From Echinarachnius parma (taxonomy: Eukaryota; Echinodermata; Echinoidea; Clypeasteroida; Echinarachniidae): a DNA stretch of 64,000 nt. A model generated the notes under the pieces. The model worked only from the letters and a program-made list of their open reading frames with translations, was not told the DNA's origin and searched no databases. The stretch lies in contig JBAMJV010008013.1 in the NCBI GenBank assembly GCA_037951105.1, positions 57,580 to 121,579 on the forward strand, given 5' to 3'. Shown piece after piece: positions 1-49,700 of this stretch (position 1 is the first letter of the stretch; the number at the start of each line of letters is the position of its first letter). The position numbers and the translations under genes are program-made.

Positions 1-154
1 ATCAGTGGTTATTACCAAATAGGAAACGAGTCTCTCGTCATCGAAGATCGCGTCATTGAGAGTGTACCCATCGACTAGGTCCATAAGGAGATCGAAACGG
101 TACTCGGTGGCAGCACAGGCGAGCAACCGGACGATGTTCGGGTGACAGACGAGA
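1..154 (-). CDS. NACHT-kinase exon 8: kinase N-lobe to hinge, truncated by window edge
   Basis: Encodes LVCHPNIVRLLACAATEYRF followed by DLLMDLVDGYTLNDAIFDDE. HPNIVRLL is the classic strand 4 motif of protein kinases, and LLMDLVDGYTL corresponds to strand 5, hinge and the start of helix D. The acceptor is CTTTTAG. The frame is open to base 1; HRD and DFG motifs would be to the left. Confidence 0.8.
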
Positions 155-3100
155 CTAAAAGTTGATAGCGGAGTTAAACAAAAGGACAATTATTATTAAT
201 CATGTGGAACACTTTCTTTGCTCTCATATGTATTGATATTTCAATATTTGAAATCAGGATGCATGTTTATAAGGACTCATATTAAAGGGATAGTTGAGTA
301 TTGATCAAACTTAGCTTTAGTAACCAAAACCTGCACCATTACGGTTCAAACTAATAGTTATAACTCCAATATGCTTGAAAAGTATACACAATTACAAACG
401 ACTAAGTAAAACCCCTATTATCATTCAAAAAGAGCCGTTAGAACGCAAGAGGGCGCTTTCTAAAGACTCTGGTTTTAGCCATTTTTCATACTAAATTGTG
501 CATTTCATGTTTTGTTAAAATCATGATTCAATAGAGATATTATCAACGGTTTTTTAAAAACATATCTAGATTTTGTTCATAGAGTCTATAAGCGATAAGC
601 ATGTATTTGAAGTGCCCTCAACTATCCCTCTAACTGTGTTATATACAGTTATGTGTATATGACCGCCTAACGGAAACAAGCAGGGTGAACATTTTAGACA
701 GGTGCCCTCTATGGACAAATTCCATAACATTGTTTTCTCAAATTAATGAATAATTGTTGGGCCCCAATATATATTTAATAGCCTACCTGTTTATCTTGAT
801 TTCCTTGATAACATCCTCTCTGAGCCGATTCTCCACGCCTTTTATTCGCTTCATAGCGACAATGTTGCCTTCAAACTCAGCGGTGTACACCTTCCCAAAG
901 CGACCCTCTCCAATCTTACGGAGTTTTTTGTACGATGATGTATCAACTATTAGAAAAGTGAGACACCATTGATTAAAACAATATTATAGTTAAATTGTAC
1001 CAACAATGGAGTGCAATTAATTTATTCTACAGAACGAAGGATAAACATGTATTGTGAAGTTTATAGTCCGGCAGCAAAAAGCAATAATAGTTATTACTCT
1101 GATAACAGTTACTTTTTCTTCAAATTATTCATGTATTTGATGTATAGATGAATCCAGAGTAAAGGGACAAGTTACACCTGGGCAATGTTATCTTATATGT
1201 ATGGGCATAATATCATAAATAAAGTTTCTTTCAAAAGGTACATTCTAATCTGGGCAGCAAAAAAAATATTTGTAAAACAATGTACTTCGGGATGGGTAAT
1301 CAATTTGTGCTATGATACTTTACCACAGAATGTTATTTTGTTATTATATAATTCTATATTATATCCCTCATAAGATCGTTTTACCATTGTATTTGACAAA
1401 TGATAGTTTTGGACAACACGCGCAATCCCCGCGCAATCATGTGACCGGGCTGTTAGCAAAAAATTAACACTAAAAGTTCGTTACGCGTTCGTCCCATAGA
1501 TCATGTGTTTAAGCAAAATGCACACGCGATCAAATTTGTGCAGTACTCTATGGCGCACACGTTCTAGTCACGTGATTGACATTGCTGGTAAAAACTAACA
1601 CCCTGGGAAGAAGAACGCCAAGACAGCCAATAAGCACATCCGTGGGAGCGCTAGCACGCATTCATCGCGTATGTGCGCAACTGCCAGCGCGTTGGTGCGC
1701 ACTCAGTTTTGCATCTTTGTGATTGTGTGTGCAAAATAACAATGACTTTAAGCGTATTAGATGCGCCGTGGTTCTGGAGGCTCATACTGGCTTCATTAAT
1801 GTCGATTGATTTTTATATCAAAATTTACAAGCGATTTTATGAAATATTCAGAGATTATCACTTATTTTGCTATAAGCTGAACACAATCACTGATATTGAT
1901 GAGTGATATAAAACAACTAACGAATGTGCTTGATTGTGATAGGCAATCTATTACCTCGGTGGGCTCAAAATGACTATTACCCTCAGCTACGCTTCGGGTA
2001 ATAATCATTTTGAGCCCACCTCGGTAATAGAATTGAATATCACAAGAAGCCCATTCGTTAGTTGTATAATATAACCCTACTTGTCTTATTGTAATATTAT
2101 ATGGGGATCCTGTAATAAATATTTACTTGATCGTATTTTACTCTTGCAGAAAAGGACAGTTCGTATCATTTGTCATAAGCCATTTTTAAGCCACTCAAGA
2201 CCCCTATTTTTAATGTTGAAAATTTTACCCATTAATTTATTGTATGAATTCCAGTTGTGTGTGTTTATGTACTCATTTTATAATAATTTATTACCAAAGT
2301 CATTTAGCAATACCTTGCACTGCAATAGTGATGTTCACCACTATAATACTATAACTGCTTCAGATATTCGGGCAATATATGGACGTAAATCCTTCTCAAA
2401 CTCTATATTTGTATGCAAAGGTCCGCTATTATGGAATAGACAACCTATTTGAATTAAACAGTGTAAAACTTAAAGCAATTTTAAAAGAAAGCTCAAATCA
2501 TACTTAATGCTTCAAATTTAGATGCAACATAATAATTTTTCTTCTCTCTTTCTTGTTTTAGTAACTTTATAGTAATTCCCATTTTTCTTTGGATAGATTA
2601 AACAAAAGTTTCGTTGTATGTATACCTTTTATTCGCTTGCCCCGAGGAGTGTCTATATATAAGTTCTCTGTAACTTCCAGACAATCCTCCCTCTCTTCAT
2701 ATCTGTTCTTTGATTGTTTTTTTTCTTACTTTATCCTGTGTTTGCAATGTACTTTATGTATTGTAATGTTGTTTTGTATTATTGTATACTTGTAAAAATG
2801 TATTCTATTTGTTTTTATGAAATTGGAAATAAAATTCAATTCAATTCAATTCAATTATATTATATTTGTGTGCATGTGCAGCAATCTAAAATCCAAGATG
2901 GCTTTTCCTTTTTAGAATATTCATGGTTTCGCTGAGGCTAGAGCCTCAAAACATAATGAGCAAAAACATTTAATCATGTTGCAATATACACGTAGGGCAC
3001 AAGTCATCGTTGGGAGAACTGAAGGAGTTGAGAAACAAATAATACAATGAGCAAACGAAGGAAAGCGGGGTAGAGGTCGTCAAGCAATACCGTGGATTGA

Positions 3101-3422
3101 TGATGTCAGCACTCAGCACTCTGCATCAACACGTGAACTTGATTATGATTATATTAAAGATATTTGAAATGGATTGCAATGTTGACGAACTTCGGAAATG
3201 CATACAATAATCATAACACAATCACTTACCCAGTCGACACGGTAAGCTGTCATGTACAATGGCTCGCCCTGAATAAGACAAGCAAAAAACAACCATGTGA
3301 AATTGCCATAGCAGTACTATGATTATCATAACTATTATAATAATAGTTAGCAACAGTAGTATTTGCTCTAGTATAAATTATTATCATTATTATTATTAGT
3401 AGTAGTAGTAGTAGTAGTTGCT

Positions 3423-3460
<38 letters not shown>

Positions 3461-3473
3461 CGTAGTCGTAGTC

Positions 3474-3530
<57 letters not shown>

Positions 3531-3532
3531 TG

Positions 3533-3575
<43 letters not shown>

Positions 3576-6500
3576 CTAGTAGTAGTAGTAGTATGAGTAG
3601 TAGTTATAGTAGTTCTTCTTCTTATTCTTCTTCTTCTTCTTCTTCATCTTCTTCTTCTTACTATTACTTTCTTAATATTGTGGTTGATGTAATGGCATCA
3701 TTATTTTTAATATTTTGTTATCATTATTATAAGAATAGAAACACAAATTCGAAATATATACCATCTCCCGATTCGACAACAATTTCGCTCTCCCTTTCAT
3801 TGTCTTGTGATTCGTTGATTGACAAAAGAAGTTGCTCATCTTCTCTAGCTGGCCCAGTGTCCACCGGAGCAGCAGCAAATGTTTGCGCCATAACTTGACT
3901 TCTGAAAGCTGTCAATATAAACATAACACACACAGTAAGTCCCCCTACACAGTTCGTAATAATTTCTTAATCATTACCTTAATGGTAGAACTACATTTAT
4001 ACTGTACATTGTGTCTGAAAAGCAGAGATATCCGTCTGAATAAATTATAAATTAAATTACAAAAGGACACATTTGCAAAGGTCACGATAACTTGCGTACG
4101 CATGTACCTTGTTGTACAGCACATTTTGTTCAACCCATTGATTATGGGTTGGGAAATGATTATGTTTTTATTTCCATAAATTTGTATTAATGGCACATGT
4201 GGTTAGATTGTTTTATTATTTATTGTAGAACAAGACAACTTGAAATTTCAAAATTCTCAAGAAACTGCAGTAATGATATAACTTGTTCGAATGCAATAAT
4301 ACGAAATATTGTTATGACATCATGAGGAGTTGTTTATATTTTGTGTTTACGACAATTTGCAGTGGTCTTTGATTAAGATTCTGGCAGGTTCGGAAGCTCG
4401 GGACAGATTCGACCCATAATAAATAATGGATAACCTACATACTTATACAAGACTAAAGTGTGAAGTGTATGAAACAATATATGGTAATGTTCATATAACG
4501 CCCTGCTCAGAGTTGAATATTGTTTTACATAATAGACTTACATATGTTACTTGTCTTCTTCTCGGCGGTCGAGTTGGTCGTGATGGAGAGTTGCGGCATC
4601 TTCTTGATGCAGTTTCCAGAAGATCCCTCATCAGCAACCGCACCGACATCCGCATCAACCTGATCTTGTAGAACTATTTTGACTTTGGCATCTGCCTTGT
4701 AGCTGAGTTTGAGCCATGTGAAGGTCTTCAGTTTGGTCCCCAAGTCTTCTGGGCCTTCAAAGACGTCCACCCGGATTCCTTCGAGAGCCAGGTTTGATTG
4801 ACCTTTCGGTATGCTTGGGTAGGCGTATTCTAACAGATAGACCAAAAACTTGCACACAGTAGCAGTTGGCTTCACGAACCGCATGCACCTGGTGACTGGA
4901 CGGAGGATGTCATTCAGCTGTCCGTCGTGGTGGCCCTCGAAGTTTAGTTCCAGGACCAATTCCGAAAATTTCTGGTGGGACAAATCAACCTGAAGTATGA
5001 CGCCATCTTCCATTCTTTTGCATGCGTCACCGAAATCCTCTTCCTTCTGCACGATGTCTATGACATGCTGGATAATTACCCTTGCTGCCTTCAGATTACT
5101 ACCTCCGCAAGCGAATTTCAGCAATTCACGCAAGACCAACACGTCATCCATGCTTCCAATCTTCTGCAGACTTGCTTGAAAGGAATCTCTTTCCCCGGTG
5201 TTACCGTCAAGGAGCTTGACCAGGTGATCTGCTGCAAACTTCTGTTGAAAATGGGGCATCTGGAATCGGATTATTTTTCCTTGTGTCGCTGCACAGGAAG
5301 TGGGATTGATTTCATCGATGCAGGATCTAGTGAGAAGACCGAGTCGACAGGCTTCATTAATGACTACGTCCTTACTGCCTCCACAGACTTCGAAATCATT
5401 GTAGCTGAGTAGGAGCGTTTCTCGGTTATTTCCTTGGAGATAACATCCGAATGCCACTTGCTGGAGATATTGGATGACCTTTTCCCGAGGAAGGCGATCT
5501 GCACTTGAACACCTACTCTCAGGTCTCGAAGGCCTACCTGCTGAACTCGTATGAATCGAAGCAGGGCGTGAATACCAACTGTTACTCGTGCCCGTATGTG
5601 CTCGGGGAAGATGAAAAAAATCATCATATGTCATGTGAGCCGATGGAGATGTTATTGGTGACCTTGTGTTATAATCCCATTTGCTGTCTTCATTTGCATC
5701 AGAAAGTCTCTTTCCTGTCGATTTCTCGCTGTCATCGCTCTCCTCATTGTGCTTGATGTAACAATCGATGAATTTGCTCACCAACTTAGAGATCGTCTCC
5801 TGATGTCCCATGTCTGATGGATTCTCCTCCCACTTGGCAATCTGACACAAACCGCAGAGAAGTACCGGTGAAGATGCCATGTGATGGGTCAGATCGTTGG
5901 CCTCAAGGTACTTCATTAGATCTCTCCCAAAGTCCAGGCGCCTCTTGAAGACCTGTTCTATGTAGGATCTAACGGAATATTTTGATAGCCCCTTAGCTGT
6001 CAGGTGGTTGTAGCTACCGTATACTTCATGGAAACCCCGTACTTGGTTGGGTACCGTGATTACCAGTATATTCAAGTTCTTGAATTTTTTTAGCTGGACT
6101 ACTGGTAGGAGGTTGGTCATTACATTGAGGTCATCATCGCGCATCTTATCATAGTTGTCCAGGATGACCATGACATCATCCCCGTTCTTCTCACACATGT
6201 TGGTAATAGTTTCTGTTGAAACATTGAAGGAGGGTGGGAAGCACTGGGCGGCAATTGCATCGATCAGTGTCTGATTCGGATCCATTTCCAGAGTATCCAC
6301 ATAGAAGACCACCTTGAACCTTGACAACGGACCGGATGGTATCGCTTGACTCCACAGGTACAGCCACATCTTCATTTCGGTTGTCTTCCCAACTCCCGAA
6401 GGCCCCACCAGGAACGTCTTCCTTCTCTTGCTCCCTTCACCAGTCGAGAAGAAGTCATCTTGTGAGACGCTCTCTGTTTCAGGGAGATCCGGGGAAATCT

Positions 6501-9500
6501 TGCTCAGCACCATTACCACAGGGACGTGAAGATCGTTTACTGGGTATATCTTCGCCTTTGTGGAAGGTAGGAGGGCGATCTGCAGGATGTTGCTCCCATG
6601 TGCCGTATATCGCTCCCTAACGGCATCACCATACTTAGGTAGATCTTCAGAAGGCCTAATCGTGGAAAACATAACCGTATTAATAGCGTTATGGGAAGAG
6701 AACACATCACATGTTTCAAAACTCAAACATAGATAAATTATATCATTCGCTCTTGTGATTGTGCTGATATCGCTCTTACTGGTGGATTTTATAAGAACAC
6801 CTGCTTAAAGTGAACGAACCGTTCTTGTTGAATCTCATTTGTACTCTAAGCTAAAAAAATAGTTTATAACCGATCGACACCTTTCATTCGACGTATATCC
6901 ATGTATATCGTGCACACATGGCGAGCACCTAATACGCCTTATTATTAGCACCGATTATTTGCAAATTGCCGAAAGGGAGTCCCAACAGCAGGGTATTTTT
7001 CATGTGTTAAAGGGTCTTACTAGATGACTGGGTCTGCCGCCAAGTGAACGTTTTGTGATGGAATAGGCAGAATATCGGAATGGCATGTTTGGAGAGTGCC
7101 ATTGCGTCGCTGACAGTGCTGTATAGTTCTAATAACTACTTCATCCAGAGAAATTCGGTCTGAGGATCACTAAACAAGAGCGAAGATATATATATATATA
7201 TGTTCTAACTAATACTTGAATCACTCTATTGTGATCCAGCTGAAGTAAAGGCGGCTTGCATTGTTCGTAACTCCTTCCCCATGAATACTTGAGTACAAAG
7301 GGCCGAGAGATTGGCTTGCCAATGACCTGAACTGGATCTGTCCTTAATCACACGGTCCCCGTGGCCTAGTGGTTAAGGCATCGGCGTTCCAAGCCGGAGA
7401 CCCAGGTTCGAGTCCTGGCGGAGACCAATTTTTCGACCAGTGCCTTTTTTCATTTGGCGGATTAAAAGGAGGAACATTGCTTATTAAGCTACGCCTACTA
7501 TTATTCTTCCTTCTCAATCATTTATGATTATTCCTTGCAATTATTTATATATTGGAAGAAACCGAAGCTGTATGTATGTATTAGTTCACTTCTCGCTTAT
7601 ATATATATATATATATATATATAGATATTTAGTAATAGTTTATCAGGCCTCAATATTAACTGTCTATGCCGTTTCTCGACCATTTCGTTTGGTTGAAAAA
7701 GAAAACAAATATTATACATAAAAAAAACGTTCAGTAACGTGTTTGACTCAGCACTAATAATAATAGTAAAATACTAATAAAAGAAATAGTTTTTGTAGTA
7801 ACTGTCATTTGCCCTGAAGAAGATCCTGCTAGGATTGAAAGCTAGGCTGTATACGACTCTCATTTTTTTTTTCAAGTTCGCGATTATGTCAATCTAATTG
7901 ATAATAGGAGCAAACGAATTCGCACGATTTGCGATAGCCGTGTCAAAGCAGCATTCAAATTCGTAAAGAGTCGTTCAAAATCACGTAGGAGCAAGTGAAT
8001 TTGCACAAAGAGCATACATTTTCATCAATGGTCGTTCAAATTCGCACGATATGTACGCTGGCGCTGCCGCTACTGCACATTCCCGAATTCAATTGCCCAT
8101 AATTGACTCTGTGTATATTTACGAAAGCTTATGTGTATGAAGAATTCGTCTGCACTAATTCGGAAGTTGATTGAGCTGGAAAACCTAAAATAATGATTAA
8201 AATTCAAAATATTTATTTTCTTCACAAGTATTTACAAAAAGGATTTCTGCAAAAGTTGTTCAAATACAATAAAACCTGTCTACGACGAATCAACCACTAG
8301 TGAGCATTTATGTTGTATCCCATAGTCAATGTGAAGTCAAACCTGTCTGTCACCTGTTTAACTTTATTTGGATGGCTACTGCTGACAGGTTTGATAGTGT
8401 AATAACTTGGTCAAATCATAGCACACTTACTCGTATTTGGACATCATGTGCGGTCCCCTGCCATGATTAGTTGCGTGTAGTCGATGGAAGGCGAGTTGGT
8501 CGAATGAAAGTTCTGTTAAAAGATGATTTGAAATGAGTTAGTATTGATTGATAATCAAAGACCATACAAGTGACAAATAAGGGCGTACTGGTAGAGGATG
8601 TAAATCGGGAAACGTACGTTTAAATTCATCCATGACGTCGCCAAATTCAATCAAAATGACTTGGAGCCAACAAATTGATTTTGCACCTGGATGATTGGCT
8701 TACAGGGTAGCGGAATAATTAAAGTTAAGACATCCTACCAATCTGAATATTTTCGAATTTCAAACGTCCCCCTAATGATGGAAATAATCAGTATTCAAAT
8801 AGCTTTTCTAGGTACGTACTTTTTGTACTTTTGGTGGACTGATACAACTAGTATCGTTCATTTATTTAAAAAATGTGTTGAGTTGTTTGATCCCTTAAAC
8901 ATATAGTGCGCTTGAAAAGCAGCTGGGGAAAGCATGATCCCCAGGCAGGTGAGATGGTACACAATACATTTGAGAGTTTGAACTGTACCTGTTCGCCGAT
9001 GATAATTGCCCCTCTAAAATGGGTACCGAGATACATTTGACTTAGACAAATACCATAACGGATGTTGTCGGGAACATTATGAAATGGTCCCTCGGGATTT
9101 AAAATAATTTTCGGGAAGACAGTGAGTCCCTTGATTACGTCTTGGGCATAAACATCTTCCCCTCAAATATAATTTCAATTCCATCGGAGAGGAACATTTC
9201 GGATCATGGTGATGTTCCCTCATCCATCAATTAACACCTATATATAATATCATATAAGTTGATAAAAACTGAAGATAGTCTCCGTCGATGAAAGTAAAAA
9301 AAATAAACAAAACAAACTCGAAAAACGCTTCTGATCCAAGGTAACTTTTTTTTGTTTAATCACTTGTTATTGGTTTCGCTATACGTCTTCAGAAAAGTAA
9401 CAGAAGACATGTAACATGATGGAATTAAAGGGATAGTTGAGTTTTGGTAGAGAGGGCGCTACACATAATAATTTTTGTGTGAGATAATGAAAAACTGAGT

Positions 9501-10996
9501 GTAAAATTTGAAAGAGCATAATATTTTAGTGACAGAATAAACTTTATTTGATCAAAATCGGTTCAGAAATGGCTGAAAATCCATAAACGTAACCATTTGT
9601 AATAAATGTGGGGCCCCACAAATATTAGGTAATTTTGAACCAACCGTTACAAATTTGTTTAAATGCTTCCTCTTTTAAACATTTTCAAAATAAGTTTTTT
9701 AATAGTTGTTGATTATCTCTCTATCTAATCACTATTTTTACTAACCTTCGCATGCACAATATTTTATTTCAAATGGTTTAAACCAATGTGTTTTAGATAG
9801 CACCATCTTGAGTTTGAACGCCTCTGTTTGAATGATAAAAGGCTTTTTACTCGGTCGTTTGTAATTTTGAATTCCTTTCAAGCATGGTAGAGTTATAACT
9901 TTTAGTTTGTAATGTAATGGTGCAGGTTTTGTTTACTAACATTCAGTTTGAACAAAACTGTACTCTCTTTACCAGAACTCAACTATTCCTTTAAAGACAA
10001 TTTACCATGGATTGGAAGCGTTTTTCGAGTTTGTTTTTATTACCATTCAATTGTCTTCCTGGCGGGCTATCAACAACACTAGGATTGGTAAGCGGTTGAG
10101 TAAATGATATGGGTTGCCTTGATGCGACCTGGTCCACACCTTCGGCCTGGCCGTTATTTGACCGGTCCAGATCCTCCTTGGACATATTCAGCTGCTCGAT
10201 AAAGCCTTCTGAATCTCTCATATGTCCGTCCGATTCGCGCAGTAAGCTTCTAAGATCTTTGTCACTTGAGTTACTTGAGTTACTTTATTGATGTTGGGTA
10301 AAGAGGACATGACACCACTTTATTTTGATAACAAGTAATTTTACAATAAGTACGTGTCACTATAGTCAAATACGTGTGGAAAAACAAAACAGGGAAACAA
10401 GAAAATGACCAGTGTTGACAGGCGACCTCAGTCTATAGATTGTTCCATAAAGAGATTTTCTCTCCAAGGGATTACCTTTGGTTTCAACTGCACGTGTATA
10501 GACAGGTAGCCAGCTATAGACGGGTAGTCGCTAGGATTCATCTGTATAATATCTCTAATTACAATCAAGAGGTCAAACATGTCGTAGCAGACAACACTAT
10601 AGAAGCCATATAGAAGCTTATCATGCAGGGAAAAGCGATGTTATGGAACCTGTCTGTAGGGGTCACCTGTATACACTGGCCACTGTTATTGGTTCCCCTA
10701 GGTAGTCATTATGCACACAAGTTTGACTTTATTAGGAACTGATCTCTTTTACAAACCAAACGATATATACTAGACTATATTCAACAATACATATATTATC
10801 ATTTTATTTTAAAAGTTCTTGTATCAGTGTGCTTGACATTTTAAGGAAATATTCACCTTGTGTACTTTGTACCTGAACCAATAAACAGTAACTGAACAAA
10901 CAAATAAATAAACTTACAAACAAATACACTAATAAACAAACCAACAATCACTTACCTGCATATCGACATTTCTGGGGATTCTTGGTAATGAGCCAT
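1..10996 (-). CDS. NACHT ATPase-protein kinase fusion gene, 8-exon model, 3' end beyond window
   Basis: Proposed coding exons, in transcript order: 10956-10996, 10044-10264, 8431-8512, 4542-6721, 3762-3908, 3230-3268, 787-946 and 1-154. Every intron is GT-AG, and exon phases agree at all seven junctions, giving 3024 nt (1008 codons) without a stop. Domains in order: about 114 residues of unrecognised N-terminus; a NACHT module with Walker A GPSGVGKTT (about residues 221-229) and Walker B VMVILDNYD (about 298-306), followed by NLR-like helical regions; a roughly 60-residue acidic linker; then a kinase N-lobe with glycine loop IGEGRFGKVY (915-924) and VAMK lysine (936). NACHT proteins are STAND-class NTPases that oligomerise, often in innate immune sensing; a kinase in the same chain would suggest direct phosphorylation output. 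The joining is inferred from phase and spacing, without transcript evidence. The alternative is two adjacent genes, with the NACHT exon reading through to a stop at 4525-4527. Confidence 0.6.
286..629. mobile_element. TTAA-flanked inverted-repeat element, family X (internally deleted)
   Basis: Begins TTAA/AGGGATAGTTGAGT and ends ACTATCCCT followed by CTAA, a mutated TTAA. The interior (AAAACCTGCACCATTACGG, GAGGGCGCTTT) matches the full 535-562-bp copies elsewhere, but about 200 bp are missing. It lies in the intron between kinase exons 7 and 8 and has no coding capacity. Confidence 0.75.
787..946 (-). CDS. NACHT-kinase exon 7: protein kinase N-lobe
   Basis: Encodes DTSSYKKLRKIGEGRFGKVY followed by TAEFEGNIVAMKRIKG: the glycine-rich loop (GxGxxGxV) and the beta-3 lysine (VAMK). 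REDVIKEIKIN supplies a helix-C candidate with its glutamate. The acceptor is TAATAG and the donor CAG/GTAGGC. It ends in phase 2 and joins exon 8 as AG+T (Ser). The type is Ser/Thr or tyrosine-kinase-like; the catalytic loop lies outside the window, so the subgroup is undetermined. Confidence 0.8.
1357..2068 (+). repeat. Dispersed repeat R with terminal hairpin, copy 1
   Basis: About 710 bp that recurs in reverse orientation at 30440-31148 with high identity, including a GC-richer block (CACACGCGATCAAATTTGTG). Its last ~154 bp (1913-2066) form an imperfect palindrome starting and ending in ACAACTAACGAATG or its complement, with inner arms GTGGGCTCAAAATGA. No coding capacity or simple terminal inverted repeats. 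It abuts a truncated LINE fragment. Confidence 0.7.
2072..2862 (+). mobile_element. 5'-truncated non-LTR retrotransposon (LINE) 3' end
   Basis: The frame at 2081-2452 encodes SYCNIIWGSCNKYLLDRI followed by LLLQKRTVRIICHKPFLSHS and QLCVFMYSFYNNLLPKSF, the characteristic C-terminal region of CR1/Jockey-like reverse transcriptases. A frameshift near 2450 ends the frame, and an AT-rich 3' UTR leads to a short (AATTC)n tail around 2836-2857, typical of LINE 3' ends. It is truncated at its 5' side exactly where repeat R ends. Non-functional. Confidence 0.8.
3230..3268 (-). CDS. NACHT-kinase exon 6 (micro-exon)
   Basis: A 39-nt exon between TTATTCAG and a consensus GTAAGT donor. In the frame demanded by its neighbours it encodes GRAIVHDSLPCRL, leading straight into the kinase N-lobe. 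Its size makes it uncertain alone; strong splice sites and phase agreement on both sides support it. Confidence 0.5.
3394..3660. repeat. Trinucleotide microsatellite (TAG/AGT)n then (TTC)n
   Basis: Nearly continuous AGT repeats with CGT and ATG interruptions from 3394 to about 3612, then TTC repeats to 3660. It sits in the intron between exons 5 and 6 of the NACHT-kinase gene. The serine-rich plus-strand reading frame across it is only the repeat translated. Confidence 0.95.
3762..3908 (-). CDS. NACHT-kinase exon 5 (acidic linker)
   Basis: The 147-nt exon encodes an acidic linker including PVDTGPAREDEQLLLSINES and ERESEIVVESGD. The acceptor reads TTGACAG and the donor GATG/GTATAT. It enters and leaves in phase 1, matching the NACHT exon and exon 6. 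The composition suggests an unstructured tether between the NACHT and kinase modules. Confidence 0.55.
4542..6721 (-). CDS. NACHT-kinase exon 4: NACHT NTPase module
   Basis: A single 2180-nt exon encodes about 727 residues. The N-terminal part holds YPVNDLHVPVVMVL and is followed by the P-loop FLVGPSGVGKTTEMKMW, Walker B VMVILDNYDKM and a sensor-like strand LNILVITVPNQVRG, as in NACHT ATPases. Downstream, FQMPHFQQKFAADHLVKLL resembles the conserved Phe/His helix (F.H..FQEYLAA) of the NLR winged-helix region. A low-complexity Ser/Arg insertion (SRPASIHTSSAGRPSRPESR) sits between the ATPase and that region. There are no leucine-rich repeats. The frame stays open upstream of 6721 without an ATG, so it must begin at a splice acceptor. 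The donor ATAT/GTAAGT lies just before a stop; unspliced transcripts would end at 4525. Confidence 0.85.
7355..7426 (+). tRNA. tRNA-Gly (anticodon TCC)
   Basis: A complete cloverleaf. Acceptor GTCCCCG/CGGAGAC with one C-A mismatch at the fourth pair; D arm GCCT/AGGC; anticodon stem TCGGC/GCCGG around loop GTTCCAA (anticodon TCC); perfect T stem CCAGG/CCTGG around TTCGAGT. Internal promoter boxes A (TGGCCTAGTGG) and B (GGTTCGAGTCC) are intact, and a T5 run at 7429-7433 plus a T6 run at 7445 are RNA polymerase III terminators. It lies antisense in an intron of the NACHT-kinase gene. The acceptor mismatch leaves some doubt about function. Confidence 0.85.
7812..7856 (+). other. Hammerhead-like motif (CTGAAGA ... 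GAAA)
   Basis: CTGAAGA at 7814-7820, a five-pair stem GATCC/GGATT with loop TGCTA, then GAAA at 7837-7840 and a small AGC/GCT stem. This order resembles the hammerhead ribozyme core and the CCTGAWGAAG...GAAA motif seen near Penelope-like retroelements. The position after the small stem is G, which a cleaving hammerhead would not have, and no stem I is visible, so it is probably a degenerate relic. Confidence 0.3.
8431..8512 (-). CDS. NACHT-kinase exon 3
   Basis: The 82-nt exon lies between TTTTAACAG and a consensus GTAAGT donor and encodes about 27 residues including FDQLAFHRLHATNHGRGPHM. It enters in phase 1 from exon 2 and leaves in phase 2, exactly what the NACHT exon requires. The consensus donor and double phase match make it convincing as an exon although the peptide matches no family I know. 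Confidence 0.55.
9429..9990. mobile_element. TTAA-flanked inverted-repeat element, family X (full length)
   Basis: 562 bp between two TTAA sites (9425-9428 and 9991-9994). Termini are AGGGATAGTTGAGTTTTGG and the inverse of AGGAATAGTTGAGTTCTGG. A GGGCCCC palindrome marks the middle. No coding capacity. It lies in the intron between exons 2 and 3 of the NACHT-kinase gene. Confidence 0.9.
10044..10264 (-). CDS. NACHT-kinase exon 2 (N-terminal region)
   Basis: The open frame includes DKDLRSLLRESDGHMRDSEG and later IEQLNMSKEDLDRSN, a hydrophilic and possibly helical stretch followed by a Ser/Pro-rich segment. It ends in a donor reading AATG then GTAATA. The acceptor is the last of several AG dinucleotides in a short CTCAAGTAA repeat, so the 5' edge could shift by up to about 18 nt without changing phase. 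It ends in phase 1, matching exon 3. No domain recognised. Confidence 0.5.
10265..10955. other. Intron 1 of the NACHT-kinase gene, no distinct element
   Basis: AT-rich, with scattered fragments like TCTATAGA and GACAGGTAGCC that resemble degenerate copies of the 58-bp minisatellite unit at 28.1-30.0 kb. No bounded element or coding signal. Confidence 0.4.
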
Positions 10997-11027
10997 CTCG
11001 GAACTCTTGGAGGAATGCAAGTATAGG
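10956..11027 (-). CDS. NACHT-kinase exon 1 (short 5' UTR plus start codon)
   Basis: The exon is bounded by a pyrimidine-rich acceptor (TTTTTATTCAG) and a consensus donor (GTAAGT). The proposed ATG occupies 10996-10994 in a good context (G at -3, G at +4) and begins MAHYQESPEMSIC, ending in phase 2. All three frames of this 72-nt exon are open. This frame is chosen because it alone supplies a well-placed ATG and the phase needed by the next exon's best acceptor. An acceptor upstream of the ATG implies at least one further 5' untranslated exon, not located. Confidence 0.45.
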
Positions 11028-11464
11028 CTGAATAAAAAAGGAGATAAAGTATATTCAAGGGGATGGTACAGTTTCGGTTTAGACGGCGATAGATTGCGCT
11101 GTGGGGAGGGGGCTTATGTTCTTATGGATTTGCGGATAAATTCGTGAAAACCATGTCATATTTATGCCAAATCGTCAAATACAGTTGAAGACGGGAGTGG
11201 TGAAAATGGACCAGGGATCAATAATATTTGGGCAAAAGATCTCAGCCACTGGCAAATATGTGCCCGTATATACGCCCATGACATGATTCATACCACAGTC
11301 ATTTTTTACCTTTACACAGTTCGTTTCGATAACCGACATTTAGTCACTAAAAGCGCCATAGCTCGAAAATAACAAAACCAAATTTTTTATTATACCTATC
11401 ATGCCTATGTTTTTTATACTTGTTTTCAAAAATAGATTTCGAATCTAACACAAGTGTTTTTATT
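11028..11464. other. Upstream flank of the NACHT-kinase gene, nothing recognised
   Basis: The 5' flank or intron of the NACHT-kinase gene. No TATA box, CpG-rich block or bounded repeat can be supported here. Confidence 0.3.
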
Positions 11465-11468
11465 TTAA

Positions 11469-12321
11469 CCCTAAAGAGGCCGGGCTGTTTGAGGTCTTCC
11501 TACGGCCGGGGGCAGTATAGTCCCTCCCCTAAGATTTCGGCCGTGAAACGGCCGATCGCCGCGACAATTTACAAGCATGTCAAGTGAAGTGTATAAAATA
11601 CTATGGTAATTTCAATTTCAACTTCAATTTCAAATCACCTCTTAACATATTATTGGTAATTTACGCAAATAAGGTCATAATTTGTTACCCTCAAATCATC
11701 TATTTTTCATAATTAAACATTGTTTTTTCTGTACATGTATTATTTAGACCAGTTGGAATATTAATACAACACAACAAAAATTGGAACAGCCAGGTTACTA
11801 TTTATTTTTTCTATTATTTGGATAACTTCTTATATAATTCTTTTTTTGTTCACTTATGAATTTTATTGTTTGTGTTAATTTATTTTATTTACAATTATAA
11901 TTTACTCCCAAAACAAAACACCAAAAATGTAAACAAGACCAAATAACCAATGCTTTAACTCTTTTTAGGAAATCTAAATTCTCCATTATGTTTTGTACAC
12001 AAGCATGGGCGTCGATACTTACGTAATACCTATTCATCAGGTGAGATGAATGAATAGATCATTCCCCTTGATGAATGGGTATCAATGACAGATCGACGCC
12101 CATGTACACAAATCTCGAAAATGAGCGATTTTAGGGCTGACATGCAAAAACAAAAGGTCACATTACTTCGTAACGGTAGGACCAATTTCCGAAAAACTTG
12201 TTTTAAAAGATGCACAAGACTCGAAAAACGGTCACCTAGCGACGGGGCCTAACCTTTACTCGTTCCCGAGCAATCAGAAATATCGCGAAGTGGGCAATAG
12301 AGCTCCTCTGCCTTATTAGGG
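11469..12321 (+). mobile_element. TTAA-flanked element, family Y, copy 1
   Basis: Starts TTAA/CCCTAAAGAGGCCGGGC and ends CCTTATTAGGG followed by TTTA (mutated TTAA). The CCCTAA terminus plus TTAA target is typical of piggyBac-type elements; there is no transposase. A separate hairpin is inserted at 12004-12113. Confidence 0.75.
12004..12113. repeat. Hairpin-forming insertion in the Y element
   Basis: Arms CATGGGCGTCGATAC and the inverse ending GATCGACGCCCATG enclose a second palindromic part around TTCATC. Compared with Y copies at 22.4 and 24.66 kb, which run uninterrupted through GTACACAAATC, this stretch is additional sequence, so it is a small palindromic insertion. Confidence 0.65.
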
Positions 12322-12970
12322 TTTATGTTGTGGATGTCATGGTTGTGTTTTTCTGTGTCACGCCGAATCATTGGATACATCATTTTGTTTATAGGCAAAT
12401 ATTTCTAAAAAGGAAATTAACAAGATAATGCACTAGTATTGTAAATGTACTGTGTCTACACCGGGCTTTATACAATATGACTGTGTACCATATATGATTA
12501 AAGGGATAGTTGAGTTTTGGTAGAGAGGGCGCTAGACTACTTATTCTTTTGGTGAGGTAATGAAAAACTGAGTGTAAAATTTGAAAGAGCATAATATTTA
12601 AATAATAAAATCATCTTTGTTTGATCAAAATCGGTTCAGAGACGGCTGAAATATCCATAAATATAACAATTTGTAATAAACCTGGGGCCCCAGGTTTATT
12701 AGAGAATTTTGAACCAGCCGTTAACAATTCAAAAAAATGCTTCCTCTTTACAAAAAGTTACAAAATAGGTATTTAAATAGTTGTTGGTTATTTCTCTATC
12801 TAATCACTATTTCAGCAAAGCATCACATGCACAATATTTTATTCAAAATGGTTGAAACCGATGAGTGTTTAGAGAGCGCCCTCTTACGTTTTAACGGCTC
12901 TTTTTGAATGATAACATGATCTTTACTACGTCATTTGTAATTTTGTGTTCCTTTCTAGTTATAACTATTA

Positions 12971-15900
12971 CCCAGCTAGCCACCTGACGTCGTGCCGATG
13001 TCCAAAGTTGTTGGCCGGATGTCGGCATATCGTGGTTGGCTCGAAGTTAAAATGTCCGCCAGCCCAACATCGTCACCACGTCATTTTGTGATACGTCAAT
13101 TTCTGACAATGGCCCAACATCAACTCCTGACATTGGACCAACATAACATTATGATGTGGGCGCGAGGTTAAAATGTCCGCTAGCCCAACATTGTCCCAAC
13201 ATCATTTTGTGATGTCGGGCAAATGTCAATTTCCGACAATGGCCCAACACCAAATCCTGACATAGGACAGATATCAAATTCTGATGTGGGCTCGACGTTA
13301 AAATGTCCGCCAGCCCAACATCGTCACCACGTCATTTTGTGATACGTCAATTTCTGACAATGGCCCAACATCAACTCATTACATTGGACAAACATAATAT
13401 TATGATGTGGGCGCGAGGTTAAAATGTCCGCTAGCCCAACATTGTCCCAACATCATTTTGTGATGTCGAGCAAATGTCAATTTCCGACAATGGCCCAACA
13501 CCAAATCATGACATAGGACAGATATCAAATTCTGATGTTGGCTCGACGTTAAAATGTCCGCCAGCCCAACATCTTCACCACGTCATTTTGTGATACGTCA
13601 ATTTCTGACAATGGCCCAACATCAACTCATTACATTGGACCAACATAATATTATGATGTGGGCGCGAGGTTAAAATGTCCGCTAGCCCAACATTGTCCCA
13701 ACATCATTTTGTGATGTCGGGCAAATGTCAATTTCCGACAATGGCCCAACACCAAATCCTGACATAGGACAGATATCAAATTCTGATGTGGGCTCGACGT
13801 TAAAATGTCCGCCAGCCCAACATCGTCACCACGTCATTTTGTGATACGTCAATTTCTGACAATGGCCCAACATCAACTCATGACATTGGACCAACATAAC
13901 ATTATGATGTGGGCGCGAGGTTAAAATATCCGCTAGCCCAACATTGTCCCAACATCATTTTGTGATGTCGAGCAAATGTCAATTTCCGACAATGGCCCAA
14001 CACCAAATCCTGACATAGGACAGATATCAAATTCTGATGTGGGCTCGACGTTAAAATGTCCGCTAGCCCAACATTGTCCCAACATCATTTTGTGATGTCG
14101 GGCAAATGTCAATTTCCGACAATGGCCCAACACCAAATCCTGACATAGGACAGATATCAAATTCTGATGTGGGCTCGACGTTAAAATGTCCGCCAGCCCA
14201 ACATCGTCACCACGTCATTTTGTGATACGTCAATTTCTGACAATGGCCCAACATCAACTCCTGACATTGGACCAACATAACATTATGATGTGGGCGCGAG
14301 GTTAAAATGTCCGCTAGCCCAACATTGTCCCAACATCATTTTGTGATGTCGGGCAAATTTCAATTTCCGACAATGGCCCAACACCAAATCCTGACATAGG
14401 ACAGATATCAAATTCTGATGTGGGCTCGACGTTAAAATGTCCGCCAGCCCAACATCGTCACCACGTCATTTTGTGATACGTCAATTTCTGACAATGGCCC
14501 AACATCAACTCATTACATTGGACAAACATAATATTATGATGTGGGCGCGAGGTTAAAATGTCCGCTAGCCCAACATTGTCCCAACATCATTTTGTGATGT
14601 CGAGCAAATGTCAATTTCCGACAATGGCCCAACACCAAATACTGACATAGGACAGATATCAAATTCTGATGTTGGCTCGACGTTAAAATGTCCGCCAGCC
14701 CAACATCGTCACCACGTCATTTTGTGATACGCCAATTTCTGACAATGGCCAAACATCAACTCATTACATTGGACCAACATAATATTATGATGTGGGCGCG
14801 AGGTTAAAATGTCCGCTAGCCCAACATTGTCCCAACATCATTTTGTGATGTCGGGCAAATGTCAATTTCCGACAATGGCCCAACACCAAATCCTGACATA
14901 GGACAGATATCAAATTCTGATGTGGGCTCGACGTTAAAATGTCAGCCAGCCCAACATCGTCACCACGTCATTTTGTGATACGTCAATTTCTGACAATGGC
15001 CCAACATCAACTCATGACATTGGACCAACATAACATTATGATGTGGGCGCGAGGTTAAAATATCCGCTAGCCCAACATTGTCCCAACATCATTTTGTGAT
15101 GTCGAGCAAATGTCAATTTCCGACAATTGCCCAACACCAAATCCTGACATAGGACAGATATCAAATTCTGATGTGGGCTCGACGTTAAAATGTCCGCTAG
15201 CCCAACATTGTCCCAACATCATTTTGTGATGTCGGGCAAATGTCAATTTCCGACAATGGCCCAACACCAAATCCTGACATAGGACAGATATCAAATTCTG
15301 ATGTGGGCTCGACGTTAAAATGTCCGCCAGCCCAACATCGTCACCACGTCATTTTGTGATACGTCAATTTCTGACAATGGCCCAACATCAACTCATGACA
15401 TTGGACCAACATAACATTATGATGTGGGCGCGAGGTTAAAATGTCCGCTAGCCCAACATTGTCACAACATCATTCTGTGATGTCGGGCCAATGTCAATTT
15501 CCGAAATTGGCCCAACACCAAATCCTGACATAGGACAGATATCAAATTCTGATGTGGGCTCGACGTTAAAATGTCCGCCAGCCCAACATCGTCACCACGT
15601 CATTTTGTGATATTGGCCTAACGCCAATTTCTGACAATGGCCCAACATCAACTCATGACATTGGACCAACATAACATTATGATGTGGGCTCGAGGTTAAA
15701 ATGTCCACTAGACCAACATTGTCACAACATCATTCTGTGATGTCGAGCAAATGTCAATTTCCGACAATGGCCCAACACCGAATCCTGACATAGGACAGAT
15801 ATCAAATTCTGATGTGGGCTCGACGTTAAAATGTCCGCCAGCCCAACATTGTCACCACGTCATTTTGTGATATTGGCATAACTTCAATTTCCGACAATGG

Positions 15901-16256
15901 CCCAACATCAACTCACGACATTGGACCAACCTAACATTATGATATGGGCGCGATGTTAAAATGTCCAATAGCCCAACATTGTCACAACATCATTCTGTGA
16001 TGTTGGCCCAACGTCAATTTCCGCCAATGGCCCAATATCAAATCCTGACGTTGGGCCAACATCAAATTCTGACGTTGGCCCGACATTACAATGTCCGCCA
16101 GCCCGACATTAGCCCATCGTTATTTTGTATTGTTGGCCCAACATCAAATCTTGACGTTCGCCCGACGTTTGAATGTCCGCTAACCCAACATTGGCCCAAC
16201 GTTATTTTTTGATGCTGGACCAACATCCAAATTTGACAATGGCCCAATGTCATTAA
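12971..16256. repeat. Left-arm minisatellite, ~251-bp dimer with 1134-bp higher-order repeat
   Basis: Successive units of about 125 bp alternate between a CGCCAGCCCAACATCGTC and a CGCTAGCCCAACATTGTC version, giving a 251-bp dimer. Diagnostic variants (CAACTCCTGAC, TTCTGATGTTGGC, TTAAAATATCC) recur at exactly 1134-bp spacing, so 13050-14183 and 14184-15317 are a recent tandem duplication of nine monomers. Units become more divergent toward 16256. Confidence 0.9.
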
Positions 16257-20489: not shown

Positions 20490-21971
20490 TAGTTTGTAAT
20501 GTAATGATGCAGGTTTTGGTTACTAAAATTCAGTTTTACCAAAACTGTACTCTCCTTACCAGAACTCAACTATCCCTTTAAGCTGTGTGGGGAAAACCCA
20601 CACTGAAGAAAGCAAAACACGCCATAATCGCGATGTGGGCAATAGTGCTCCCCGGCCTTATTAGGGTTTATGTTGTGGTTGTCATGGTCGTGTTTTTCTG
20701 TGTCACGCCGAATCATTGGATACATATTTTTTGTATAGGCAAATATTTCTAAAAAGGAAATAAACAAGAAAATGCATTGGTATTGTTAATGTACTGTGTC
20801 TATACCGGGCTTTATACAATATGACTGTGTACCATATGATTAAGCTGTGTGGGGAAAACCCACACTGAAGAAAGCAAAACACGCCATACTTGCATTATTG
20901 ATTTATCAAAGATCAAAGTCTAAATTAACTGATTGCAATGCAGCATTGTGACAGAGTTATTATACAACTATAATTATGTATGTAGTATAGTACAGCATGC
21001 AGCTGCAGCAGCCGATACAATTTGACTCGCTGTATAAATATTGTGATTAGCTCCTGTATATTATGTGAAATCGTAGTACATAAACTGCACTAGTAATTGT
21101 TCAGTTTTAGTTTCGTCCTTTTCATAATTTATACACACCCAACGCATTTAGCATGTTTAGATAAATGAATCATATATAATAAAAATGGATATGAGCAGAA
21201 AATGGTACAATAGGCATAAGTATGTATATAATATTATTGTATGTACTGTATGTATTTGTTTAATTAATATTATAATTAAAACGACAATAAAAAGCGTTAA
21301 TAACGTGCGTATAGTTTTGTTTATTTTAGCATGTTTTATAATATATTATTTCAAACCTAGGGAAACTGATCAAGCATTTTAGATGTTGCCATGGTAGTTA
21401 CAATAATTGGACACTTACAACAATTAGAAAAAGGGCCCATACATGTATAATATAAATGCAAATGCAAATGAGCAATGAATGTCATTCACACCATTCCAGT
21501 GAAATTCAGGCATCTAATCTAGGATGGGTAAAGTATTCCGAAAACAATGTATTGCAATACAAAAAAAAGTAATTATGGTATGTATTACAGTCAAACCTAC
21601 TCTATCATTCACATGTATACAACAACTACGGGTGGCATTCTCAAAGGAGGATTGTACAAACCATGGTTTAAAATCTGCATCAGTAGGAATGCCATTTGTA
21701 AACTGATGGAGAAATAATGTAAACTCGTTACAATGTTGATGCTACATATTTACTAATAAGGCACCACATACATGTTTGTCTTCTCAGATGGAGAAATTTG
21801 CTGGTTAGCCAGCACTTATAGTAATATCACTAGAAATTATGATTTTTTTAATTGGTCTACGAGCAGCACTCCATGGATGTAGACTATGGTTTGAACAAAA
21901 AAGTAATGGTTTACACAAACCTCCATTGTGAATCTGGGCCGAACTGTCTATGGGAACCACTTAGCTTGACT

Positions 21972-28105: not shown

Positions 28106-30012
28106 TACAGTCAAACCTATACTAGTGACCACCTTCGAATAAAGACCACCTGTAAAAAAACAGTTGACTTCATTCAATGTAGTTTACATGTAATGAACCT
28201 GTGTATAGAGACCCATTAATATTGACTCCCTTGAATGCAGTTTACATGAAATGAACCCGTCTATAGAGACCACTAATCTTGACTCCCATGAATGCAGTTT
28301 ACATGTTATTTGACCTGTCTATAGAGACCACTAATCTTGACTCCCTTGAATGCAGTTTACATGTAATGAATCTGTCTATAGAGACCACTAATCCTGACTC
28401 CCTTGAATGCAGTTTACATGTAAATGAACCTGTCTAAAGAGACCACTACTCTTGACTTCCTTCAATCCAGTTTACATGTAAATGAACCTGTCTGTAGAGA
28501 CCACTAATCTTGACTCCCTTGAATGCAGTTTACATGTAAATGAACCTGTCTATAGAGACCACTACTCTTGACTCCCTTCAATGAAGTTTACATGTAAATG
28601 AACCTATCTATAGAGACCACTAATCTTGACTCCCTTGAATGCAGTTTACATGTCATGAACCTGTCTATAGAGACAACTAATCTTGACTTCCTTCAATGAA
28701 GTTTACATGTAAATGAACCTGTCTATAGAGACCACTAATCTTGACTCCCTTGGATGCAGTTTACATGTAAATGAACCTGTCTATAGAGACCACTAATCTT
28801 GACTTCCTTCAATCCAGTTTACATGTAAATGAACCTGTCTATAGAGACCACTAATCCTGACTCCCTTGGATGCAGTTTACATGTAAATGAACCTGTCTAT
28901 ATAGACCACTAATCCTGACTCCCTTGGATGCAGTTTACATGTAAATGAACCTGTCTATAGAGACCACTAATCTTGACTCCCTTGGATGCAGTTTACATGT
29001 AAATGAACCTGTCTATAGAGACCACTAATCTTGACTCCCTTGGATGCAGTTTACATGTAAATGAACCTGTCTATAGAGACCACTAATCTTGACTCCCTTG
29101 GATGCAGTTTACATGTAAATGAACCTGTCTATATAGACCACTAATCTTGACTCCCTTGAATGTAGTTTACATGTAAATGAACCTGTCTAAAGAGACCACT
29201 ACTCTTGACTCCCTTGAATGTAGTTTACATGTAAATGAACCTGTCTGTAGAGACCACTAATCTTGACTCCCTTGAATGCAGTTTACATGTAAATGAACCT
29301 GTCTATAGAGACCACTACTCTTGACTCCCTTCAATGAAGTTTACATGTAAATGAACCTGTCTATAGAGACCACTAATCTTGACTCCCTTGAATGCAGTTT
29401 ACATGTCATGAACCTGTCTATAGAGACAACTAATCTTGACTTCCTTCAATGAAGTTTACATGTAAATGAACCTGTCTATAGAGACCACTAATCTTGACTC
29501 CCTTCAATGAAGTTTACATGTAAATGAACCTGTCTATATAGACCACTTATCTTGACTCCCTTGAATGAAGTTTACATGTCATGAACCTGTCTATAGAGAC
29601 CACTCATCTTGACTCCCTTCAATGCAGTTTACATGTAAATGAACCTGTCTATAGAGACCACTAATCTTGACTCCCTTGAATGCAGTTTACATGTAAATGA
29701 ACCTGTCTATAAAGACCACTAATCTTGACTCCCTTAAATGAAGTTTACATGTAAATGAACCTGTCTATAGAGACCACTAATCTTGACTCCCTTGAATGCA
29801 GTTTACATGTCATGAACCTGTCTATGGAGACCACTAATCTTGACTCCCTTCAATGAAGTTTACATGTAAATGAACCTGTCTATAGAGACCACTAATCTTG
29901 ACTCCCAGTTGACTTGCAGTTTACATCTAAATGAGCCTGTCTAGAGAGATTACCTGTGGATAAAGATCACATATCCTTAATACCCTTGAATGATCTTTAT
30001 ATACAGGTTTGG
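28106..30012 (+). repeat. ~58-bp minisatellite with 753-bp higher-order repeat
   Basis: About 30 copies of a unit containing TGTCTATAGAGACCACTAAT, CTTGACTCCCTTGAATGCAG and TTTACATGTAAATGAACC. Rare variants (TGTCTAAAGA at 28431 and 29184; CATGTCATGAACC at 28649 and 29402) recur at exactly 753 bp, showing a block duplication of about 13 units. Flanks ACAGTCAAACCTATAC and ATACAGGTTTGG are divergent half-units. Confidence 0.92.
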
Positions 30013-30439: not shown

Positions 30440-31148
30440 TAGTATACAACTAACGAATGGGCTTCTTTTGATAGTCAAATCTATTACCGAGGTGGGCTCA
30501 AAATGATTATTACCCGAAGCGTAGCTGAGGGTAATAGTCATTTTGAGCCCACCGAGGTAATAGATTGCCTATCACAATCAAGCACATTCGTTAGTTGTTT
30601 TATATCACTCATCAATATCAGTGATTGTGTTCAGCTTATAGCAAAATAAGTGAAAATCTCTTGAATATTTCATAAAATCGCTTGTAAATTTTGATATAAA
30701 AATCAATCGACATTAATGAAGCCAGTATGATCCTCCAGAACCACACGGCGCATCTAATACGCTTAAAGTCATTGTTATTTTGCGCATACAATCTCAAAGA
30801 CGCAAAACTGAGTGCGCACCAACGCGCTGGCAGTTGCGCACATACGCGATGAATGCGTGCTAGCGCTCCCACGGATGTGCTTATTGGCTGTCTTGGCGTT
30901 CTTCTTCCTAGGTGAATAGTTTTTACCAACAAGGGCAATCACGTGACTAGAACGTGTGCGCCATAGAGTACTGCACAAATTTGATCGCGTGTGCATTTTG
31001 CTTAAACACATGATCTATGGAACGAGCGCGTAACGAACTTTTAGAGTTAATTTTTTTACTAACGCCCCGGTCACGTTATTTTGCGAGTTGTCCAAAACTA
31101 TCGTTTGTCAAATTCAATGGTAAAACGATCTCATGAGGGATATAATTG
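30440..31148 (-). repeat. Dispersed repeat R with terminal hairpin, copy 2
   Basis: The reverse-orientation partner of 1357-2068. The hairpin here is at 30446-30598 and begins ACAACTAACGAATGGGCTTC. Both ends run out of homology at the same place as copy 1, so about 705 bp is the natural element length. Confidence 0.7.
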
Positions 31149-46729: not shown

Positions 46730-49700
46730 GTAGTACTACTACTACTACTACTACTACTACTAATACTACTACTACTACTACTTCGACTACTACTACTACA
46801 ATGTAAACAAATGCATTCAGTTTAGTATTAGTATTATTACTTATTGTTTACAATTATAGAATCTAAACAAAAACACATTTTTTGTCCTGCTTACCTATTA
46901 AGTTTAAGTTCTTCAAACATAAACATAACGACTAAATGAATGTATATAAAAATGACATCAAGAACCTAAGTATTTTGAACAGAAACAAATAATTAAGCAT
47001 TTTCTACTTAAATGACCACACTGAGCAAATGGAGTAACGATAACTGTTAAAGCGTACATTTAAGTTATTTACTTTTAGAATATTCATCGATCATATTTTA
47101 AAGATAACAAGCATTCAAATTTAAAACTAATAATCTGATTTTAAATTAAGACGCCTTAATGATTATAACTGAAATGAATACGATGAACATCGAAATAATA
47201 TTAATAATACTAATAATAATAAGTGTTGCGTACCCACAGTTGCAATATGATGATTTTTACTTATCGTTTTTACCGACAATTTCGTCAAGATACTGTCTTG
47301 AAAGTAGACAGTTAATTGCGTTCAATTTTAGGGCAGAAGTTTAGCGACAACATATCAAAATGTAGAATAAAATTGATTTAGAATGAGCGAGACATGGCCG
47401 ATTACCGAACCGAGTAATTTTGTATTTAAACATGCAATATAATAGCGTCAGAAAGTTAAATTTAAGTTATTAGGCGTGCGTTTTTCAATGAACTCGACTG
47501 ATTTATATATGAATTACATTTTTTGGCTAAATTATACAATTAATAGCGAATTTAGGGAATATGGTCCATGAGAGATTTAACACCATTTCCTAAAATTGTA
47601 ATTGTGAAATCATTTGCCATTGCCCAACTTATTTTTCTTTCAGCAGTATTCCAGAAGCCCCCTGATTTATGTATATATGAAGTTGAATCTATTATATACC
47701 GTACTCTTTTATTTGTAATCGTAAACCAGACAAGACATTCGTAAAACAATTATATATGCAGATTATAATGAAGGGCGTTTGAAAACGTAACACTTACCAT
47801 CAAATTTCATAGGAATCAAGATCGCGTGGGAGATGAGATTGTTAAAATACAGAAAATAAAGGCTTCTGGAAATGTTTTTATTTTTTAAAATTTAATATGA
47901 TAAATTTAGGTTATGATTAAAGCTAAATAACAGTTCCGGGAAACGCCCCTCACGCAAAAAATGAAAAATATGCTTTCATCACCTACCACGCGAGAGAATA
48001 TATCATAACTTAGATGTTGTTGTAAAGATTTGGACAAAAATTGCTTTAAAATTGAATAATTGAGCATTTATTGGTTCCAAAATAAACGATATTTGGCAAA
48101 GTCCATTTTAACCTGCAAGCGCTACTATATAATGCGCTACGTGATATTTAACATGCGGTATGTTTGCAGGTATGAGGGCTTGTCGATATCTCCAGGCCAG
48201 CGCCAGCGGCGCGGACAATTGCGCGAAAGGGCCATAATTTGTAGGCCAACTTTTTGGGGCGCCCATTGGATGTCTTCCTATATTTCTGCATACTAACGAT
48301 ACTAAGGTTCGGATTTTACCACACAAGCCCTTTTTTATGTTTATCCAACAATATTGATCAATTGGTTTGGCCAATATAGATGTTTGCGGTAACTTTCCAA
48401 AAACTGTAATTTGGCTTTAATTTTGGACTTGCAATTTAAATAGTAAAGACCAATTGATGGAAATTAATTAACTCCTTTATAAAAGAAATTGTAGTAGCCT
48501 GGAGTGATATCAATGCCAACGTAACATCTTCAAACAACGGAGGCATAGACATGATAGATATCCATCCAGCAGCTACAGGTTGTATACTTCGACCAAACGA
48601 TCCTACAAAATACCGACCCCGTTTATCCTGACCAGCACCAGTGGCGTATCCAGCTGTCAGCCAGCTCGGCATCCTGAAAACTTACCCAAGGAGCTCACTG
48701 CCATGACTGTTGGGTTTCCCGCCGTCCTTTTGAACGGAGTTTTCCTGGAGTTTAGAGCAACAAAAGGGTGTTTTGCTTCATCATCGACTAGTATATTGCC
48801 GCCTGCTACCAATACCTTCTAATTGTATGTTTATTCCTTGCAGGAGAATCACTCTTGAAGGAAAGATGATCCGAAGAAGCAGGAGGAGCCGTCTGACGGA
48901 ACACAAGGAACCACATGATCGTCTAGTACGATGCTGGGTACTACCAATACCTACTTATTGTATGTGTTTATTCCTTGCAGGAGAATCACTCTAGAAGGAA
49001 AGATGATCCGAAGACGGAGGAGGAGCCGTCTGAGGGACACAAGGAACCACATGATCGTCTGGTACTATGCTGGGTACTACCAATACCTACTTATTCTATG
49101 TGTTTATGCCTTGCAGGAGAATCACTCTTGAAGGAAAGATGATCCGAAGACGGAGGAGGAGCCGTCTGAGGGACACAAGGAACCACATGATCGTCTGGTA
49201 CTATGCTGGGTACTACCAATACCTACTTATTCTATGTGTTTATGCCTTGCAGGAGAATCACTCTTGAAGGAAAGATGATCCGAAGACGGAGGAGGAGCCG
49301 TCTGAGGGACACACGGAACCACATCATCGTCTAGTACTCTGCTGGGTACTACCAATACCTACTTATTCTATGTGTTTATTCCTTGCAGGAGAATCACTCT
49401 TGAAGGAAAGACGATCCGAAGACGGAGGAGGAGCCGTCTGAGGGACACAAGGAACCACATCATCGTCTAGTACTATGCTGGGTACTACCAAGACCTTCTA
49501 ATTGTATGTTTATTCCTTGCAGGAGAATCACTCTTGAATGAAAGACGATCCGAAGACCGAGGAGGAGCCGTCTGAGGGACACAAGGAACCACATCATCGT
49601 CTAGTACTATGCTGGGTAATACCAATACCTACTTATTCTATGTGTTTATTCCTTGCAGGAGAAGCGCTCTTCCAAGAAGGATGATCTGGAGAAAGAGGAT

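Follow-up and report, generated by a model that had tools for sequence, protein, structure and literature searches.

Plant NLRs contain NB-ARC rather than NACHT and possess LRRs, and the animal NLRs NOD1 and NOD2 signal by recruiting a separate kinase, RIPK2. In the latter case NLR sensing is linked to a kinase, as may be the case in the predicted protein described here, but the kinase there is a separate protein (RIP2 is named in PMC13133943). Fusions in which NLR and kinase lie on one chain are stated for plant NLRs with integrated kinase domains, and NACHT proteins with a C-terminal kinase are known in fungi (PMC12258605). The fungal cases, nine NACHT NLRs of Chaetomiaceae and Podosporaceae, all keep the complete tripartite build, and their kinase is similar to CHK2 (PMC12258605). 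Our predicted protein would share with them a kinase placed C-terminally on the NACHT chain, but the fungal NACHT is TLP1-like (T-NACHT), whereas NAIP is the only significant relative found here among solved structures, a hint that the present NACHT is of the NAIP-like type. Other fungal NLRs have PKinase as effector and likewise present a kinase as a candidate NLR effector; the kinase is N-terminal there and C-terminal here (PMC4986451, PMC9815663).

Among animal NLRs, NAIP and NLRC4 resemble the present locus in the NACHT and the adjoining helical region, NAIP being the top match among solved structures (4.4e-10). They differ in that no LRR, BIR or CARD was detected here and a kinase is found instead. 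Echinoderm NLR sets can be large, with 203 members in sea urchin and 53 in Chiridota (PMC8913654), and LRR-less forms occur, for example AjNLRC4, which similarly has a NACHT without CARD and LRR; its partners are an Ig domain and transmembrane parts, and the word kinase is absent from the main text of that paper (PMC8699970). In surveys of animals the partners of NACHT include DD, DED, CARD, TIR, HEPN, Ig, WD40 and TPR (PMC2575513, PMC8260672, PMC9646362, PMC8913654, PMC8699970), with 35 Pfam partners in cnidarian NACHT proteins (PMC8260672) and about 21 domain combinations in amphioxus (PMC2575513). An animal NACHT-kinase protein was not found in the main-text passages of open-access papers that were covered; the full partner lists of such surveys may include a kinase.

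The features of the gene model, all on the minus strand of the window (the whole 64-kb stretch of DNA that was analysed), are in protein order:

10956-11027, minus strand: exon 1, 72 bases, phase 2-in/2-out, with an ATG at 10996
10044-10282, minus strand: exon 2, tentative, no Pfam domain
8431-8512, minus strand: exon 3, tentative, its phases fitting both exon 2 and the NACHT exon
4542-6655, minus strand: large exon with NACHT and helical domains, 2114 bases, 704 codons
5944-6417, minus strand: NACHT domain (Pfam), residues 80-237 of the large-exon product
5020-5178, minus strand: NLRC4-type helical domain (Pfam NLRC4_HD), residues 493-545 of the large-exon product
3762-3908, minus strand: exon 6, linker, 147 bases, phase 1-1, containing an ATG at 3891
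3230-3268, minus strand: exon 7, linker, 39 bases, phase 1-1
787-946, minus strand: exon 8, kinase N-lobe with GEGRFGKV glycine loop, VAMK lysine and alpha-C glutamate
16-154, minus strand: exon 9, which continues the kinase (HPNIVRLL...LLMDLVDGYTL); its remainder lies beyond the window

The large exon is the spliced part (6655-4542) of an open frame of 759 amino acids (6804-4525, minus strand). The NACHT ATPase claimed in the initial annotation was confirmed in this exon by Pfam (5.2e-13, 49.6 bits against a cut-off of 26.7). We take GPSGVGKT at 6405-6382 to be the Walker A motif and VMVILDNYDKM at 6174-6142 to be the Walker B region. The match to NLRC4_HD (2.6e-5) has 25.0 bits, exactly its cut-off of 25, and the helical region also matches NAIP weakly over residues 461-544 in the search of solved structures (i-Evalue 3.8). 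Significant matches of the large exon in that search are four NAIP sequences only, and the fifth PDB entry, Uup, is not significant at 0.42. The single-sequence fold of the NACHT exon product was unusable (pLDDT 38.5, pTM 0.30). Residues 304-388 of the product contain 21% serine against 8.5% overall; speculatively, this stretch and the linker might offer phosphorylation sites.

In the large exon and onward through the linker and the kinase N-lobe no LRR family was found at E up to 10, in a search where the HMMER filters drop most matches above 0.1 and in a window that ends inside the kinase. The same regions together with exons 1-3 gave no BIR, CARD or death-fold domain in Pfam. A second copy of the NACHT or of the kinase is absent from the 64-kb window, the next tblastn matches having E values of 0.5 or worse, and no relatives were found in viral_contigs and genome_contigs, where 1 and 12 pattern matches, respectively, yielded 0 confirmed cases.

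The kinase N-lobe that had been read from 946-787 was borne out, and was extended by the segment 154-16, which lies outside the span 787-10996 covered by that annotation. Separately, both exons stay under the Pkinase cut-off of 31.7 bits (2.3e-6 and 27.6 bits for exon 8, 0.034 for exon 9). When joined they match profile positions 1-90 without a gap at 1.3e-14 (54.7 bits against the same cut-off). Alignment to a solved kinase showed that the glycine loop, the VAIK-type lysine and the helix-C glutamate are all present in exon 8. Exon 9 has a codon score of 0.0025; as a predicted exon it rests on the kinase match, its own splice sites being modest (2.9 and 2.4). The joined N-lobe aligns with Ser/Thr kinases in the PDB (256 distinct sequences at E up to 0.001), and most of the 60 of these matches that were listed are CDK2-type, for a query that consists of the N-lobe alone. 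The window contains only this lobe of the kinase; the HRD and DFG region falls beyond its edge.

Splice sites were scored with matrices of approximate textbook values. For the codon score, the large NACHT exon alone was the training set and 2000 non-coding segments were the comparison. The bridge between the NACHT exon and the kinase exon measures 3595 bases and every junction in it is phase 1: the donor at 4542 has phase 1, the segments 3908-3762 and 3268-3230 are 1-in/1-out, and the acceptor at 946 has phase 1. Direct splicing of the NACHT exon to exon 8 is likewise in frame. Exon 6 has a coding-like codon score, reached by 2% of the 2000 non-coding segments, and ordinary splice sites (acceptor 4.4, donor 3.1); five open 1-1 exons in the bridge reach these splice values, against 0.8 expected. 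Exon 7 is the top open exon of the bridge (acceptor 9.65, donor 8.85). None of 300 dinucleotide-shuffled introns holds a 1-1 exon as good, whereas its codon score of 0.44 is uninformative. Among 294 overlapping real window and phase trials its score was reached in 11, nine of them minus-strand windows containing exon 1 of the same gene and two overlapping plus-strand windows. Comparable scores also arise elsewhere, with 18.9 at 20602-20560, which is of another phase type and lies beside a dispersed repeat, and 19.9 at one place on the plus strand. What exon 7 supports is that the kinase is preceded by an exon, and not by itself the join to the NACHT.

The 5' part of the model is less uniform. 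Exon 1, which corresponds to the first exon of the initial annotation, has an acceptor of 10.4 and the donor CAGGTAAGT, which at 12.8 is the top-scoring GT in 1-12500 (sum 23.2), and its codon score of 0.06 is not significant. The acceptor is excellent and the frame stays open on the 5' side of the ATG at 10996; therefore this ATG may not be the true start, and translation could begin further upstream. A search to 30 kb for exons with out-phase 2 gave no convincing coding exon before 11027. The two best-scoring candidates were rejected; 12404-12254 is similar to another frame, at 22705-22544, and 20602-20560 extends into the margin of a dispersed repeat (20490-20581). Exon 2 is strongly coding-like, its codon score exceeding that of all 2000 non-coding segments, but its best acceptor is weak (-1.8, donor 3.9). 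Exon 3 is plausible from its splice sites only (acceptor 5.2, donor 7.1), the codon score of 0.08 not being significant. A further segment, 7127-7021, was left out of the model, as joining it to the NACHT exon creates the stop codon TA/G. Exons 1-3 and the start of the large exon gave no Pfam family at E up to 10 and hence no recognised N-terminal domain, and no immune domain was present in the seven upstream frames that were scanned against Pfam.

Together the eight exons, including 154-16, comprise 2961 bases and 987 codons, with 0 stops. The open frame across eight minus-strand exons that had been proposed was thereby confirmed in part; its length of 1008 codons was not reproduced by this model, in a comparison that covered part of the possible exon combinations. 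The phases agree as had been proposed for canonical splice sites throughout, with the acceptor of exon 2 as the weak point. The accompanying chance estimate of 1 in 2000 is too strong and does not apply, because phase guided the choice of exons; the bridge, on which the claim depends, was assessed separately by the shuffles.

The exons of the model are free of the dispersed repeats found in 1-12000, while the introns contain some. An element of 0.7 kb is present as inverted copies at 1358-2071 and 30440-31146 (93.7% identical), one of them inside the intron before the kinase exon. At 9309-10037, a few bases past the donor of exon 2, inverted ends of 45 bases (87% alike) surround a dispersed repeat, a MITE-like insertion beside the splice site. 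The intron preceding the NACHT exon contains a tRNA-Gly (TCC) on the opposite strand (7354-7427, plus). Large minisatellites are located at 13038-16110, where the period is 251 bases (also 130 and 381), and at 28164-29949, where it is 58 bases. An astacin metalloprotease gene with CUB and EGF-like parts occupies 49620-62677 on the plus strand, opposite to the NACHT-kinase model; Astacin (1.6e-16) and CUB (1.3e-12) are above the Pfam cut-off and the EGF-like matches below it. Within it, tandem copies of a CUB-exon fragment (YPDNYNNGDVYIYRIQ and its neighbours) with periods of 74 to 171 bases are found at 59246-60171 and 61325-61771, and directly before the astacin part, at 48779-49985, tandem repeats of 136-144 bases carry a repeated coding-like stretch (PPGILFGDMMLTPEQYKEVMAAIEHEKTGR). 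The astacin-CUB gene and the intron-rich NLR together point to an animal as the source, perhaps an echinoderm.

We consider it probable, at roughly 0.6, that one animal minus-strand gene joins a NAIP/NLRC4-like NACHT to a protein kinase. Evidence from domains, splice sites and codon make-up supports the placement of both domains in one reading frame, as proposed in the initial annotation, with an in-frame model without stop and an exon 7 unmatched in the 300 shuffles, and the resulting chain remains a prediction from DNA. The most direct alternative is that two adjacent genes lie on the same strand, one for a NACHT protein that terminates with the stop at 4525, the other for a kinase, with its first coding exon being the one that carries the ATG at 3891. 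This ATG has a good context (GTTATGG, G at -3 and +4), the frame of exon 6 is open upstream of it behind an acceptor of ordinary quality (4.4), and at least one echinoderm has many NLRs that consist of NACHT only (22 of the 53 in Chiridota; PMC8913654). The stop, named earlier as a possible gene end, is real, but it lies 17 bases past the good phase-1 donor TAT/GTAAGT at 4542, which outscores 97% of the 680 GTs in 1-12500. The minus strand of the 64 kb has 95 donors of such strength, or 0.15 per 100 bases, and one of them 17 bases before a stop is therefore unlikely to be there by chance. With a gap of only 634 bases from the stop to the ATG at 3891 and with the phase matches at the NACHT-kinase join, two separate genes appear rather unlikely. 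That the model is an artefact or a decayed gene, assembled from unrelated pieces picked by phase, is considerably less probable still: exons 1-3 do lack a recognised domain, the acceptor of exon 2 is poor and gene calls of this type require transcripts, in fungi and elsewhere, but 704 unbroken codons contain the NACHT, both kinase exons fit without gap or stop, and exon 7 is better than all 300 shuffles.

A different alternative accepts the anatomy of the single gene and departs from it in mechanism. The kinase of a real fusion could be an integrated decoy or sensor, contacted by pathogen factors that attack host kinases, with the NACHT reporting via a partner. The nine fungal NACHT NLRs whose C-terminal PKinase is similar to CHK2 have been suggested to work in this way (PMC12258605), and NLR sensors are usually located at the C-terminal end. 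Against this, the catalytic residues of the N-lobe are retained, although a decoy might also retain them, and Pfam recognised no N-terminal effector in exons 1-3 and the large exon that could signal instead; we regard a decoy as unlikely. The reading that we tentatively prefer, though at less than even odds, is that the built-in C-terminal kinase is the effector of an animal NLR, a one-chain sensor kinase replacing LRR and adaptor. Shuffling of phase-1 exons onto a NAIP-like NACHT would have produced it, independently of the plant fusions and of the fungal ones with their TLP1-like NACHT. Between effector and decoy we cannot choose firmly, because the C-lobe lies beyond the window edge and the N-lobe alone is visible.

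If the kinase is the effector, the predicted protein would run from a short N-terminal region without recognised domain through the NACHT and helical domains and the phase-1 linker to the kinase, with no LRRs detected. A ligand or partner would release the NACHT module, and nucleotide exchange would then drive its assembly. Assembly would gather the tethered kinases, which would phosphorylate one another and a downstream target. One chain would thus do what NOD1 and NOD2 achieve by recruiting RIPK2, and sensing, presumably in immunity, might be coupled directly to phosphorylation.

A NACHT-kinase variant in animals is probably real, to judge from the sequence evidence. The TLP1-like NACHT of the fungal proteins, as against a NACHT nearest to NAIP here, speaks for an origin that is probably independent of the fungal NACHT-kinase NLRs. 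The outputs of LRR-less NLR forms are little known. If NACHT and kinase are on one transcript, the locus would join the fungal and plant examples as a further, probably independent, case of a kinase within an NLR. It would then offer a way to test directly if a kinase can be activated by NACHT assembly alone, with no adaptor.
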